A stretch of DNA of 64,000 nt from Halohasta salina (GTDB lineage Archaea; Halobacteriota; Halobacteria; Halobacteriales; Haloferacaceae), in NCBI RefSeq assembly GCF_024178165.1, contig NZ_JAMZIE010000005.1, positions 62,001 through 126,000 of the forward strand. The letters are read 5' to 3'. The notes under the pieces are model-generated. The model had not been told where the DNA came from, did no database searches, and was given only the letters and a program-made list of their open reading frames with translations. Position 1 is the first letter of the stretch, and each line of letters starts with the position of its first letter. Shown here piece after piece: positions 57,060 through 62,943 of this stretch. Both the position numbers and the translations under genes were made by a program.

Positions 57060-58565
57060 TCAGCGTTCCTCGCTGAGCTGTTTGAGATCCGAGGTGACTT
57101 TGAACACCTTAGCGGTCTGCTGTTCGTTGGCGGTCGCCACCTCGTCGATCTCCTCGTTGATCTCGTTGATACGCTCGGTCGCGTCGTCGATCATCGTCGC
57201 GATCTCCTCGGCGGTGCGGGCCTGATCGTCGGTCGCCTCGGCGACTTCGGTGATACCGGTGGCGGCCTCCTCGACGACGTCGACGATCTCGTCGAGCTCC
57301 GTCATGGCGTCGTCGACCCGGTCGATCCCCGTCTCGATGTGGTCGGTCGTCCGCTCGACGGTCTCGACGGTCCGCTCGATCTCCGTCTGGATCTCGGCGA
57401 TCATCGACTCGATCCGGTCGGCCTGCCCCTGTGACTCCTCGGCGAGATCCTTGACTTCGTCGGCGACGACCGCGAACCCGGCGCCCTCCTCGCCGGCCCT
57501 CGCCGCCTCGATCGAAGCGTTCAACGCGAGGATGTTCGTCTGGTCGGCGATGTCGTTGATGACGTCGACGACCGCGTCGATCTCCTCGGTCCGGTCTTGG
57601 AGCCCGGCGACCGTCGAGCCGATATCCTCGGCGGCGGCGTCGATCTCCTCCATCACGTCGATCACCGCCGCGGCCGACTGTTGGCCGTCTTCGGCGGTGT
57701 CGACGGCGCGCTCGCTGGTCCGTTCGACGTGGTCGGCCGTCGAGGCGATCTCCTCGATGGTCGCCGAGAGGTTCGACATCTCCGCCCGTATTTCGTCGAT
57801 GTTGCCCGCCTCGGTGTCGGTGAGATCGCTGATACGCTGGGAACTCCGCGAGACCTCGGTGGCGAACTGCTGGAGGTCCTGGGCGGCCTCGTTGGTCTCT
57901 TCGGCGATCTCCCGCCGGCGGTCGATCTCGGCTTCGAGATCCGCTTCGCGGCTCTCGATGTAGGTGTCCATCGCCACCTGCATGTCGAGGGTCATCAGTT
58001 TGAGCACCGACAGCGTCTCGTCGAGGCCCGTCTCGAACTCCTCGGTGACCGTCTCGACCGTCTCCTCGTCGACGCCGGCGTCGGCGAGCGTCTCGGCGAT
58101 CCGGTCGCCCGTGCGGTCGGCCATCGTCTCGAACAGCAGCTCGAAGTAGACCCCGTACTGACCGATGTACTGGGCCGACGGCATCTCCAAGAGGTCGTGG
58201 AGCTTACCGATGCGGGCGCGGTTGGTGAAGTACGCCTCGCCGTACTCGCCGTCGGTGAGCGTTCGCCAGTAGGCCCGCTGGGTCTCCTTGAGCTGGTCGA
58301 GGCCTTTCGGCGACCGGCCGATGACCTCGCTTGTCCGGTCGTACTGGGTGAGGTTCGCGTAGAACGCCTCGGCGATCTCGTCGTCCCGCGCGGCGAACGT
58401 CTCTTCGAGCCGCACTAACCGCTCGACGTCGGCCTCGTCGAAGCCGACGAACTCCTTTCGCCACCGGATCTCCTCGTCGTCGAGGCCGACCGCCTCGACG
58501 AGCGCCGACTCGTCTACCTCGTCGTTCAGTCCCCCCTGCCCAAACACGTTCGCGTTCGAATTCAT
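57060..58565 (-). CDS. hemAT: HemAT-type globin-coupled chemotaxis transducer
   Basis: The 501-residue soluble transducer has an N-terminal sensor globin (~20-180) with the proximal His in [20 protein letters not shown] and [16 protein letters not shown] after it, then a methyl-accepting domain whose tip reads [20 protein letters not shown] followed by [20 protein letters not shown]. No TM helix is present. HemAT proteins bind O2 and steer aerotaxis. It lies next to a bacteriohemerythrin, another O2-binding protein (105-base gap, same strand). Confidence 0.94.
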
Positions 58566-58670: not shown

Positions 58671-59099
58671 CTAGTCGTCGGCCTGCTGCTGGTAGTACTC
58701 GCCGTACCCCTGGTCTTGATCGTCGCCGGCGATGTGGGCGTCGAGCCAGTCGCGGGCGAACTGCAACACGTCCATGGTGATGTACTCGCCGTTCTCGTGT
58801 TGCTCCCGGAGTTCGCTTACCTTCGTCGCGAAGTTCTCGTGCATCTCCTGGTGGTCGCGGAAACACTCCGAGCAGTCCTGGGCGTAGCCACAGCCCTGCA
58901 TGAACTCCTCCTCGTCGCCGAAGTGGTACTCGGTGTACCGTTCGAGTTCTCGGAGCGTGTCCCCCACCTCCTCTTGGGCACGGCCCTCCTCCATCGCCTG
59001 ATGGAGGTCGTTGAGCAGTTCGAACAGCCGCTGGTGCTGTTCGTCGAAGCGATCGATATTCGTGCTGTACCGGTCGTCGTCCCACTGAATGAGTGTCAC
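58671..59099 (-). CDS. Bacteriohemerythrin
   Basis: The 142-residue four-helix protein has the di-iron ligands: His in RFDEQHQRLFELLNDLHQAM, HxxxE in YTEYHFGDEEEFM, HxxxH in FRDHQEMHENF and HxxxxD in WLDAHIAGDD. It would bind O2 reversibly for transport, storage or sensing. A GTG start at 59099 (VTLIQWDDDRYSTNID) gives the standard N-terminus. A Cys pair in GCGYAQDCSEC is unusual and could form another site. Confidence 0.92.
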   Translation of the reverse strand: MTLIQWDDDRYSTNIDRFDEQHQRLFELLNDLHQAMEEGRAQEEVGDTLRELERYTEYHFGDEEEFMQGCGYAQDCSECFRDHQEMHENFATKVSELREQHENGEYITMDVLQFARDWLDAHIAGDDQDQGYGEYYQQQADD

Positions 59100-59207
59100 G
59101 GTACTACACCCTAGTCGGACGGTCACGACAGTTGATGTAAGTTCTTGCTCGGATTCCCAGTTTCTTGGAACCCGTCGCCGGCTGGCAGATCGTTGCGGGT
59201 GCGTCGA

Positions 59208-59840
59208 TCACCGATCCCGGAGCGCCGCGAGGTCGGCGTGGGTGTCGACGTCGCGAAACGCCGTCGGCTCAACGTGGGCCTCGACGACCCGCTCGGGGAC
59301 GACATCCGGGTCGACGTGGTCGAGAAACGCCCCGAGACCCGATCGGCCGCCCGCCTCGACTTCCCGGCAGGCCGCCGTCGCCGCCCGGACGTGGACGACC
59401 ATCGGAAACGGCCGGCGTTCGCCCTCCAAACGGGCGACAGCACCGGTCCGGTGGCGGGCCCGCGCGAAGAGGAAGTCGACGAACGCCGCGGGAACCGCAG
59501 GCATATCGCAGGGGACGACCGCCGCGTAGGTTGCGGTCGTCTCCGACAGCGCGGTCCGCAGGCCGACGACCGGTCCGCGGTCGGAGACCGGGTCGACCGC
59601 AAAGCGGACCGCGAGATCACCCAGCGCCTCGGTGAGCTCCGCTCGCTGGTCGCGCCGGCAGTTGACGATCACCTCGTCGACGGCGGGGGTGACCGACTGC
59701 ACCGCGTGCCACACCAACGGCTGGCCGTTCAGTGGCGCGAGCGCCTTTTCGACCGTCGGAAACCGCTCGGAGCGCCCTCCAGCGAGGACAACCCCCGCCC
59801 GCCCGGTGTCGGCACGCGGACGAGCCGACTCCTCACCCAT
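59208..59840 (-). CDS. mobA: Molybdenum cofactor guanylyltransferase
   Basis: The 210-residue protein has the nucleotide-binding start GVVLAGGRSERFPTVEKALA, the metal site VVPCDMPAVPAAFVDFL and ERRPFPMVVHVRAA. MobA attaches GMP to molybdopterin to form the bis-MGD cofactor. The LAGG-x-S-x-R-F signature is intact. The ~13 polar residues before the core are typical of haloarchaeal copies. Another member of the family (for example a sugar or lactate GTP-transferase) is possible. Confidence 0.85.
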   Translation of the reverse strand: MGEESARPRADTGRAGVVLAGGRSERFPTVEKALAPLNGQPLVWHAVQSVTPAVDEVIVNCRRDQRAELTEALGDLAVRFAVDPVSDRGPVVGLRTALSETTATYAAVVPCDMPAVPAAFVDFLFARARHRTGAVARLEGERRPFPMVVHVRAATAACREVEAGGRSGLGAFLDHVDPDVVPERVVEAHVEPTAFRDVDTHADLAALRDR

Positions 59841-60168: not shown

Positions 60169-61620
60169 ATGAGTGACCCGGCCCTCGATGTGGTCGAATT
60201 CGTTCTGACGGCCCAGCTGTATACCGACGACCGGTCGTTGGACGAGAACGATCTGCCGCCCCGGTTTAGACAGGTCTTTTGGACCGAGCGCTCGGCCGAC
60301 GAGACCGACCACACGACAGGAGAGCCACAACCCCCCGGTAGTATCGAACGCCCGTTGCGGGCGACCGACTCCACGGCCCGGACGGCGACGGGCGTCGACC
60401 GGCCGTGGGAGGCGGTCTCGGAGCTGCTGTTTACACAGCGCGAGGAGTTCTCCGGCGAGATTTCGCTAACACAGCCGGAGATGGCCATCGAGTGGTATCT
60501 CGACCGCGCCGACGACGAGCGACTCCGCACCAATCCGACGATCGCCGCCGCGGTCGAAAACGAGCCCGAAGTCTCGGTGACCCACGAGGAGGCCCGACAG
60601 AACAACCGGCCGATTCAGGCCGACCGCGTCTGGATCGACGCGCTGCTCTCCCAATATTTCGACGAGGACGACGACGCCGAGATGCTGGATCTCGTGCAGG
60701 TCAGAGCGCCAGAAGAGATCGAGATGCAGCTCGACGATCTGGTGTTGACGGCCGATCAAGAGGGTGAGATCCAGAAGATCGTCAAAGCGATCGAACACAG
60801 GGATTATTTGGCCTCCATCGGCCTCCGCGAGATCGGCAAACTACTCTTTGTCGGTCCGCCCGGAACCGGCAAGACGACGATCTCGCGGGCACTGGCCCAC
60901 GAACTCGGGTTGCCGTTCGTCGAGGTCAAGCTCTCAATGATCACCAGCCAGTATCTCGGTGAGACCGCCAAAAACGTCGAGAAGACCTTCGAAGTCGCCA
61001 AGCGCCTCTCGCCGTGTATCCTCTTTATCGACGAGTTCGACTCGGTCGCCAAAACCCGGCGCTCGGACGAACACGCCGCGCTCAAGCGGGCAGTCAACAC
61101 CCTGCTGAAGTCGATCGACGACATCTCGCTGATCCGCGACGAGGTGCTGTTGATCGGCGCGACCAACCACCCCGACCAGCTGGATGCCGCCGCATGGAGA
61201 CGGTTCGACGAGATCGTCAACTTCCCCAAACCCGACCGGGGGATGCGGGCGGACATCCTCGAAGTCATCACCCAGCAGATGGAGATCGACGACTTCGATC
61301 CCGAGGCGGTCGCCAACGAGACCGAGGGCCTGACCGGCAGCGACCTCCGGATGGTGCTTCGAGAGGCAGTCCTCGAAGCCTTGACCGAAGAGCGGATGGA
61401 GCTCACACAGGCCGACCTCCTCGATGCAGTCGCCGACTTCGAAGAGCGTGACAACCTCAAGAATATGGATATGATCGACGGCGACGGCGCGGCCCTCACC
61501 GGGAGCGGCAGCGGTCACGATCACGATCATGATCACGACCACGATCACGACGAACCAGCCGCAGGCACCAACGGCGACGAGCAGGCCGTCGACGCCAAGC
61601 CGCAGGATCAGGCCCACTGA
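60169..61620 (+). CDS. AAA ATPase with a (His-Asp)6 C-terminal tail
   Basis: The 483-residue protein has an N-terminal region (~1-200) without a known domain, then one AAA module: Walker A GPPGTGKTT (~228-236), Walker B CILFIDEFDSV (~284-294), sensor 1 IGATNHPDQLDAAAWRRFDE with an arginine finger, and sensor 2 GLTGSDLRMVLREA. Residues 450-461 are six His-Asp pairs, a probable divalent-metal binding tail. It is closest to the classic FtsH/proteasomal AAA group. Only 17 bases separate it from a PhnP-like metallo-hydrolase, so the two likely work together. Confidence 0.85.
   Translation: MSDPALDVVEFVLTAQLYTDDRSLDENDLPPRFRQVFWTERSADETDHTTGEPQPPGSIERPLRATDSTARTATGVDRPWEAVSELLFTQREEFSGEISLTQPEMAIEWYLDRADDERLRTNPTIAAAVENEPEVSVTHEEARQNNRPIQADRVWIDALLSQYFDEDDDAEMLDLVQVRAPEEIEMQLDDLVLTADQEGEIQKIVKAIEHRDYLASIGLREIGKLLFVGPPGTGKTTISRALAHELGLPFVEVKLSMITSQYLGETAKNVEKTFEVAKRLSPCILFIDEFDSVAKTRRSDEHAALKRAVNTLLKSIDDISLIRDEVLLIGATNHPDQLDAAAWRRFDEIVNFPKPDRGMRADILEVITQQMEIDDFDPEAVANETEGLTGSDLRMVLREAVLEALTEERMELTQADLLDAVADFEERDNLKNMDMIDGDGAALTGSGSGHDHDHDHDHDHDEPAAGTNGDEQAVDAKPQDQAH
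61516..61551 (+). repeat. Hexanucleotide repeat encoding (HD)6
   Basis: Six tandem CA(C/T)GA(T/C) units encode the alternating His-Asp tail. The codons vary at the third base, so the repeat is maintained by selection on the protein rather than by recent slippage. Confidence 0.85.
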
Positions 61621-61637
61621 GATGAGGCGGCGTTGAG

Positions 61638-62516
61638 ATGCTGGTCACGCTGCTCGGAACAGGGGATACGACGGGGACACCGACGGTCGGCTGTGACTGC
61701 GACACCTGTCAGGCGGCCCGCGAGCAGGGGATCGATCGCTCCCGGTTTTCGGTCCACGTCGAGAACGAACACACCGGCGAGTCGATCCTCGTCGATCTCA
61801 GCCCGGACTTTCGCCACCAGTTTCTCGACCACGACGTCGACCTCCCGGATGCGGCGGTCATCACTCATATCCACTTCGATCACATCGACGGATTAGGCAA
61901 CGCCTACCGGGTGTTCGACGACCTCCCTGTCTACGCGGCAGACGAGGTCGACCCCCAGACCGGCGAGTCGGTCGCCGACACGGTCCGGGAGAAGTACGAC
62001 TACCTCGACACCGTGACCGTCCACGACGTCGCTCCCTTCGAGCCGGTCTGCGTCTGTGGACTGGAACTGACGCTCGTCCCGGTCGACCACCCGCCGTTGG
62101 TCTGTTACGGGCTGGTGATCGAGGACCCCGAGACGGGCGCAAAACTCTCGCTGTCGGGCGATACGAGCTACGACGTACCTGACGCCTCCCGCGAGCGGCT
62201 TTCCGATCCCGACCTGTTTCTCGCCGACGGGATCGTCCCCGCCTCGCTGTGTGCCTCCCACCCGATCGGCGGGGCCAACCACGACGCCGACGGCGTCCCG
62301 CGGACCTTCGGCTCCAAGCACATGACCCGCGAGGGCGCGCTGGCGCTGGCGGCCGATCTCGATGCCGACACCACGCGGCTCGTCCATACGGCCCACTACT
62401 ACCCGGTCGAGGAGGCCTTCGAGGAGCCGCTGGCAGTCGACGGCGAGCAGTATCGCCTCGACGGCAACGGCGTCAGCCGGGTCGACACACGGCGCGATAC
62501 GGTCGGTAGTCGGTGA
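61638..62516 (+). CDS. PhnP-like metallo-beta-lactamase fold hydrolase
   Basis: The 292-residue protein has VTLLGTGDTTGTPTVGCDCD with TCQAAREQG, the Cys-x-Cys-xx-Cys structural zinc site of PhnP-type phosphodiesterases, then ITHIHFDHIDGLGNAYR (active-site metals), PVDHPPLVCYGL, LSLSGDTSYDVP and a late LVHTAHYYPVEEAF. E. coli PhnP cleaves cyclic ribose phosphate; no phosphonate lyase genes are in the window, so here another phosphodiester is likely. It begins 17 bases after the AAA gene. Confidence 0.9.
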   Translation: MLVTLLGTGDTTGTPTVGCDCDTCQAAREQGIDRSRFSVHVENEHTGESILVDLSPDFRHQFLDHDVDLPDAAVITHIHFDHIDGLGNAYRVFDDLPVYAADEVDPQTGESVADTVREKYDYLDTVTVHDVAPFEPVCVCGLELTLVPVDHPPLVCYGLVIEDPETGAKLSLSGDTSYDVPDASRERLSDPDLFLADGIVPASLCASHPIGGANHDADGVPRTFGSKHMTREGALALAADLDADTTRLVHTAHYYPVEEAFEEPLAVDGEQYRLDGNGVSRVDTRRDTVGSR

Positions 62517-62520
62517 CTAC

Positions 62521-62943
62521 TTACGAGGGTTCGAGCAGTTCGATGAGGTTTCCTTCCGGATCACGGACGAACAGGATCCGGGTGCCGGTCGCGGTCGTCT
62601 GCGGCGGACTCACCGTCTCGACGTCCGCCGGCAACGACTCGTAGACGGCGTCGATGTCGTCGGTTTCGAGACCGATGTGTGTCGCGCCCGCGTCGTTGAG
62701 CTGCGGGGTCGACTGGCCCTCGCCAGCCGGCTCGTAGGCGACGAGTTCGATCCGGACGCCACCGCCGTCGAGGTGGACGAACCGCGCGCTCGCGCCGTCG
62801 ATACCGACCCCGGTTGCGAAGGCCGCGCCGTCGACGTCGAACTCGGCGACGACCGGGAGACCGAGAACGTCGCGGTAGAAATCGACTGTACGGTCGAGAT
62901 CGTCGACGGTCACGCCGACGTGGTGACCCTGTAGTTCGGGCAT
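62521..62943 (-). CDS. VOC-family (glyoxalase I-like) protein
   Basis: The 140-residue protein has the two babab repeats of the VOC fold: GHHVGVTVDDLDRTVDFYRD, then LGLPVVAEFDV at the N-terminus and ATHIGLETDDIDAVYESL, with a C-terminal GTRILFVRDPEGNLIELLEP. Metal ligands His (GHHVGV) and Glu (LIELLE) are present. It could be a lactoylglutathione-type lyase or methylmalonyl-CoA epimerase-like or dioxygenase; the reaction is not certain. It is convergent with the MBL gene (4-base gap). Confidence 0.9.
   Translation of the reverse strand: MPELQGHHVGVTVDDLDRTVDFYRDVLGLPVVAEFDVDGAAFATGVGIDGASARFVHLDGGGVRIELVAYEPAGEGQSTPQLNDAGATHIGLETDDIDAVYESLPADVETVSPPQTTATGTRILFVRDPEGNLIELLEPS

Follow-up and report, generated by a model that had tools for sequence, protein, structure and literature searches.

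Cdc48d (HVO_1907) of Haloferax volcanii is the described protein closest to an AAA ATPase encoded in a 64,000-nucleotide stretch of the Halohasta salina genome (contig NZ_JAMZIE010000005.1, positions 62,001 to 126,000 of the forward strand; hereafter the window), where the ATPase gene is followed by a gene for a PhnP-family hydrolase of the metallo-beta-lactamase (MBL) fold. In H. volcanii, two His-rich proteins, PitA and Cdc48d, contaminate preparations from metal-affinity columns; both genes are reported as essential, and cdc48d has been truncated to remove the His-rich C-terminus (PMC6985049). By a differing account, PitA and Cdc48d were swapped for orthologous genes with fewer His (PMC11169840), and the genotype of a Cdc48d-Ct strain is also recorded (PMC11353702). 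HVO_1907 was identified as Cdc48d in a study of CdrS, which binds upstream of HVO_1907, panA and psmB (PMC8406309), and the protein is SAMP1-linked at K350 (PMC5587910). Other reports concern adjacent subjects: the name ‘cdc48d’ was used for a pNRC200 gene of Halobacterium (PMC1971269), a match in name that need not be one in gene; Cdc48a, not Cdc48d, is named in PMC9051519 and PMC10470531; PMC6267482 deals with HVO_1041, PMC3296008 with another MBL protein (HVO_2763) and PMC7776575 with Cdc48/p97 in general.

The ATPase of the window shares the His-rich C-terminus of Cdc48d and can, with strong support, be identified as its ortholog, because the Haloferax orthologues (78-81% identical to the window ATPase over the best segment) conserve a His-rich C-terminus on a single-AAA protein and carry a lysine at the reported SAMP1 site (at position 350 in six of 11; in the remaining five, the lysine of FPKPD falls at 347 or 349). 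A sequence-only reading of the window had held His-rich tails to be unknown from AAA unfoldases, a statement overtaken by what is already in print for Cdc48d. In the literature surveyed, the tail of Cdc48d is treated as a purification nuisance, and neither its hydrolase neighbour nor its phylum-wide history was found described. Likewise, a literature search returned no description of the ATPase-hydrolase pair, nor of HVO_1905, HVO_1906, HVO_1908 or HVO_1909, which is no proof of absence.

With CDC48/p97 and PAN, the ATPase has in common the classical AAA domain, the aromatic pore loop, the Walker motifs and the arginine finger, and its AAA domain is close to theirs. Nevertheless, CDC48/p97 has two tandem AAA domains while the window protein has one (TIGR01243, 145.4 of 802.65 bits), the PAN models TIGR01242/PRK03992 gave 158.9 and 167.6 of 500 bits, and the N-terminal domain is other than that of either protein. 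The best NCBIfam score (192.2 bits) and the best PADLOC match (216.4 bits) fell to IetA of the IetAS anti-phage system (IteA in NCBIfam), likewise an AAA protein encoded beside a hydrolase; the IetA partner is a protease, whereas here it is an MBL hydrolase, for which PADLOC gave no match, and the score for IetA lies below the 510-bit cut-off of NF042959. An anti-phage role was rejected because every genome sampled from the class Halobacteria has the ATPase, whereas a defence gene would be expected to be patchy in its distribution.

The hydrolase shares its fold, Cys3 motif and dinuclear ligands with the PhnP family (3g1p, 6b9v) and belongs to it by these features, although it scores only 59.4 of 272.25 bits against TIGR03307 (PhnP of the carbon-phosphorus lyase pathway), its gene neighbours differ, and an insertion near residues 203-226 sets most Halobacteria hydrolases apart. 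Furthermore, His-rich stretches such as that of the ATPase tail are carried by HypB and CobW-type metallochaperones and by the LarC protein of the same genome (DHDHDHNHD). The catalytic domains of these proteins differ from that of the ATPase, an AAA protein to which the stretch was added specifically in Halobacteria.

Linkage and distribution of the two genes

The explanation favoured here, held with about even confidence, is that the two genes constitute an old housekeeping module, in which a pore-loop AAA remodeller is coupled to a PhnP-type phosphodiesterase and has, in haloarchaea, acquired a metal-binding tail. It is supported by the linkage of the genes across the phylum, by catalytic motifs that are intact in both proteins and by the single origin of the tail. 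Of 30 genus-diverse Halobacteria loci, 26 carry the hydrolase gene downstream of the ATPase gene and in the same orientation (18 within 20 nt, eight at 39-1290 nt). In the rest of the phylum, 38 loci picked by hand from 16 families were read, and in 32 of them the hydrolase gene is the immediate same-strand neighbour downstream (31 within 16 nt, one at 119 nt). These 32 represent every family except f12 and f18, 14 of 16 in all, and in most of them the two genes overlap or all but touch. Association of the two genes is thus strongly supported by comparative evidence, in agreement with the sequence-only reading, which had described them as coupled and the hydrolase gene as starting 17 bases after the ATPase gene. 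Clustering of open reading frames (ORFs) from 40 loci gave a consistent picture (ATPase in 40, hydrolase in 36, the next real cluster in 13), apart from a cluster in 38 of the 40 that consists of antisense shadow frames of the ATPase. Since the 20 Halobacteria loci in this clustering were mostly picked among loci with a known hydrolase, adjacency rates are drawn from other locus sets (of 30, 80 and 38).

Both genes are also distributed together. A query with the N-terminal domain of the ATPase matched 292 of 292 sampled Halobacteria genomes (77 of 77 genera, E<=1e-8), and the hydrolase query 291 of the 292 (E<=1e-30), the only genome missing being G002. Across the phylum, a profile of the N-terminal domain matched 226 of 294 genomes, including all 53 Halobacteria rows and hence 173 of 241 genomes outside the class. 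Outside the class, 33 of 38 ATPase-bearing genomes have a hydrolase ortholog, as against two of 20 without the ATPase (Fisher p ~1e-8, relatedness ignored; those 20 were the ones listed among 68 ATPase-less genomes). Hydrolase scores in 32 genomes split cleanly (E<=2.3e-88 versus >=5.4e-13), and completeness is only 76-90% in some ATPase-less genomes and in some ATPase genomes lacking the hydrolase.

Conserved features of the ATPase and the hydrolase

The start of the ATPase gene at 60169 is backed by the family alignment, while a longer frame from 60070 is not. The sequence-only reading had called the N-terminal domain unknown, and upstream of residue 213 no Pfam family matched at E<=0.01. 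The structure predicted for this domain (mean predicted local distance difference test score, pLDDT, 80.1) had no Foldseek match at E<=0.001 (best E 1.1), and its profile (A2) gave a single match among solved structures, at E 0.32. The single AAA domain is followed by a lid (residues 375-418). Redundancy was removed from 141 Halobacteria loci to leave 127 distinct ATPases, all of which retain Walker A, pore loop, Walker B, sensor 1 and Arg finger; among the 38 orthologues outside the class, Walker A is present in 37 and the other motifs in all.

The description of the hydrolase as a PhnP-like MBL protein with a Cys3 site and a dinuclear active site was borne out. H77, H79, D81, H82, H151, D175, H250, C19, C21, C24, H253 and H228 are invariant in all 76 hydrolases that read complete among the 149 loci scanned. 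The Cys3 site presumably binds zinc, with H253 as its probable fourth ligand, by analogy with PhnP. The predicted structure (mean pLDDT 78.8) aligns best by VIA with 6b9v (Z 24.6, 2.4 Å, 236 residues), whose record reads ‘a new diphosphatase from the PhnP family’; this match is tied with the Brucella homologue 3md7 (Z 24.4), and PqqB, PhnP (E. coli 3g1p, Z 23.0), YhfI and RNase Z rank after the two. The metal ligands correspond in residue type to those that hold the two metals in the Brucella homologue, which has Mn in its active site and a bound nucleotide monophosphate (AMP/GMP); for PhnP, a preference for Mn and Ni is given (PMC3169410). Because the closest folds are a PhnP-family diphosphatase and this nucleotide-bound homologue, the substrate is likely to be a phosphodiester or diphosphate, as judged from the structural model.

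The insertion at hydrolase residues 203-226 is found in most Halobacteria versions. It includes CxxHP(I/L)GG in five of eight Halobacteria rows of alignment A3, the three deepest lacking it, and H208-P209 is conserved in 27 of 27 rows of alignment A5. The insertion may represent an additional metal site, acquired later than the tail.

The His-Asp tail

The sequence-only reading had the ATPase ending in six His-Asp pairs; the tract is indeed there, although it is not terminal, as 22 residues follow it. The tract is not a chance occurrence. Across the 3.04 Mb genome, DNA coding for HDHDHDH is confined to two genes, the ATPase gene (three overlapping hits) and a LarC-type gene (one hit), and the reversed control pattern gave no hits there. 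The second gene encodes a LarC nickel-insertion protein (L237, 481-1776, minus strand) that scores above the Pfam and NCBIfam cut-offs.

Within Halobacteria, all 127 distinct ATPases have a tail with at least three His and at least one HxH, and none has Cys in it. His makes up 16% of all tail residues (median tail length 42 residues), whereas its median share in the protein bodies is 1.7%. Their sequence and length vary freely with the His/Asp character maintained. More than one codon is used for His or for Asp in 85 of 127 tails, and the tail is therefore not simply a fresh DNA repeat. An extreme expansion is seen in the orthologue at L118, an almost pure His-Asp run with 18 His in a 53-residue tail.

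Outside Halobacteria, HxH is found within the last 30 residues of none of the 38 orthologues, and eight have one to three His there. Conservation of the tail thus held for the class and not for these loci beyond it. In a tree of 74 ATPases with tails removed, a single change separates tailed from tailless proteins (support 100/100, and seen in 100% of 200 bootstrap trees). Because the HxH end is missing from all 38 outside orthologues, 32 of which have the hydrolase directly downstream, and because the tree needs one change only, these comparisons indicate that the ATPase-hydrolase pair predates the tail and that the latter was a single later gain in Halobacteria. The sequence-only reading had made the tail a part of the coupling, to be abandoned if orthologues keeping the pair lacked it; this is the situation found. 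By analogy, from the reported retention on metal columns and the LarC parallel, the tail probably binds metal. It is kept in G002 (L140), the only sampled Halobacteria genome without a hydrolase match.

Proposed explanation and alternatives

As an old module, the pair would work as follows. The ATPase would most likely form a single AAA ring that combines an N-terminal domain of winged-helix-like arrangement with a pore loop for threading protein; driven by ATP, the ring would remodel the hydrolase or else a substrate passed on to the hydrolase. Both proteins could instead act on a third substrate. The hydrolase would be a dinuclear metal enzyme that cleaves, as phosphodiesterase or diphosphatase, a small ester of phosphate or a compound resembling a nucleotide. 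A presumably disordered, His/Asp-rich tail binding divalent metal would have been added to the ATPase in the halobacterial ancestor; this tail may serve as an accessory metal store or sensor and would be dispensable for the basic action of the pair. Such linkage gives the reportedly essential Cdc48d a concrete candidate partner in the PhnP-type hydrolase. Moreover, a Cdc48d strain without the His-rich end exists, making the role of tail and partner directly testable.

Several observations weigh against this explanation. Linkage is not universal and has been lost in Halorubrum. Rarity of the neighbourhood, which would have counted against the sequence-only reading, is not seen overall but holds in one clade: 41 of the 80 loci closest to the window, mostly from Halorubrum, have no hydrolase in the flank. 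In sampled genomes such as G006, more than 1 megabase separates the two genes. Among the 30 genus-diverse Halobacteria, four (G058, G136, G160 and G002) have no hydrolase within ~1.3 kb downstream; in G058 it lies ~2.4 kb downstream, and in G136 and G160 there is none within ~19 kb, though the gene is elsewhere in the genome. Because seven ATPase genomes (G002, G292, G327, G308, G316, G307 and G325, three of them 77-90% complete) yielded no hydrolase ortholog, the ATPase apparently can do without this partner in some genomes, and two genomes have the hydrolase without the ATPase. Direct action of the ATPase on the hydrolase is presumed. For the N-terminal domain, VIA alignment gave winged-helix rows at noise level only (best Z 5.7, 4.8 Å, 91 residues). 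Finally, the identification with Cdc48d comes from Haloferax orthologues and not from the HVO_1907 sequence itself, and the essentiality of cdc48d is taken from a review (PMC6985049), not from the original paper.

A more specific proposal, tentative and on balance unlikely, is drawn by analogy. Some AAA proteins are activators of partner enzymes, such as rubisco activases and NorQ-type AAA proteins; similarly, across the phylum, the essential AAA ring could be a dedicated activator or repair factor of the PhnP-type phosphodiesterase, in an old translation and cofactor cluster, with the Halobacteria tail coupling it to metal supply. With one tail per subunit, several tails would then surround the ring.

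Another possibility, also given rather low probability, is that an old cluster linked to translation merely keeps the two genes side by side and co-expressed while their products work independently, with the ATPase as a general remodeller, for instance in the ubiquitin-like SAMP pathway. The SAMP1 linkage of Cdc48d (PMC5587910), the seven ATPase genomes with no hydrolase match and the surrounding genes are consistent with it. A methionine aminopeptidase gene lies upstream in six of 120 loci (L169, L171, L184 and L207-L209, the last three being the deepest Halobacteria; type II by NCBIfam at L169 and L208). Within flanks of a few kb, aIF2-gamma is downstream on the same strand in 27 of the 120, followed in several by a PIN-domain gene and rpoE1; when ten longer pieces of downstream sequence (L241-L250) were read, only L247 had it, and in the window's own genome it does not occur within 19.6 kb. 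However, these other neighbours come and go, whereas the hydrolase is adjacent in 14 of the 16 outside families and the presence of the two genes is correlated by the Fisher test. Gene order offers a hint only that the pair has a housekeeping role near translation or cofactor synthesis, not one in defence or metal transport.

That the ATPase is a metallochaperone, loading metal from its His tail into the hydrolase, is considered improbable. The resemblance of the tail to the His-Asp run in the genome's own LarC, the two metals needed by a hydrolase with ligands invariant in 76 of 76, the Mn and Ni preference of PhnP (PMC3169410) and the conserved linkage of the AAA partner would all suit such a function. 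Nevertheless, 38 of 38 outside orthologues have no HxH tail, 32 of them with the hydrolase adjoining; the His-rich end is removable in H. volcanii (PMC6985049); and the tail persists in G002 with no hydrolase match.

Archaeal pterin synthesis includes a cyclic phosphodiesterase, MptB. It is very doubtful that the hydrolase does this work in pterin/one-carbon cofactor synthesis, with the ATPase maintaining it, although its PhnP-family fold would fit and genes of such pathways are found nearby. An mptE-like gene (PF01973 above cut-off for L209 and L231) is upstream on the same strand in L207-L209 and divergent beside the hydrolase in L231 and L232, and the pair is followed by MfnF- and MfnE-matching genes in L172 and L177 and by an MfnF-matching gene in L184. 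These lineages are few, the mfn genes score below the MfnE/MfnF cut-offs (the MfnF-like ones pass TIGR03123), and the essentiality of Cdc48d would be left unexplained.

A proteasome-associated unfoldase like PAN or CDC48 is scarcely credible: for all the closeness of the AAA domain to theirs and the CdrS regulator common to HVO_1907, panA and psmB (PMC8406309), an HbYX-type C-terminus is found in none of 165 ATPases (127 from Halobacteria and 38 others), and the curated PAN and CDC48 cut-offs are missed.

Other features of the locus

The coordinates of the features are collected in Table 1. Since both flanking genes are on the other strand, the ATPase and hydrolase genes probably form a two-gene transcription unit here.

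Table 1. Features of the ATPase-hydrolase locus (positions in the window)
Feature	Position	Strand	Details
MobA-like nucleotidyltransferase gene	59208-59840	-	Upstream, divergent from ATPase; below MobA equivalog cut-off
Cdc48d-type AAA ATPase gene	60169..61620	+	483 aa; Walker A, pore loop, Walker B, sensor 1, Arg-finger motifs
N-terminal domain, residues 1-188	60169..60732	+	Predicted helical, winged-helix-like arrangement; no significant solved relative
AAA domain, residues 225-353	60841..61227	+	Pfam PF00004, 140.1 bits (cut-off 21.2)
(His-Asp)6 tract, residues 450-461	61516..61551	+	22 residues to C-terminus
Gap from ATPase stop to hydrolase start	61621..61637		17 bases
PhnP-family MBL-fold hydrolase gene	61638..62516	+	292 aa
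C19-x-C21-x2-C24	61692..61709	+	Presumed structural zinc site; Cys motif aligns with 3g1p
HxHxDH dinuclear metal motif (H77, H79, D81, H82)	61866..61883	+	Further ligands H151, D175, H250
Hydrolase insertion, residues 203-226	62244-62315		In most Halobacteria versions
VOC-family gene	62521-62943		Convergent, directly after hydrolase
Globin-coupled (HemAT-like) chemotaxis transducer gene	57060-58565	-	Assigned by eye
Bacteriohemerythrin-like ORF	58671-59126	-	Assigned by eye

With regard to gene order, the mptE-like gene adjoins the whole block of methionine aminopeptidase, ATPase and hydrolase genes in L207-L209, and the hydrolase gene alone in L231 and L232. Elsewhere in the window, the HemAT-like transducer gene stands beside the bacteriohemerythrin-like ORF, and the two are a possible oxygen-sensing pair.

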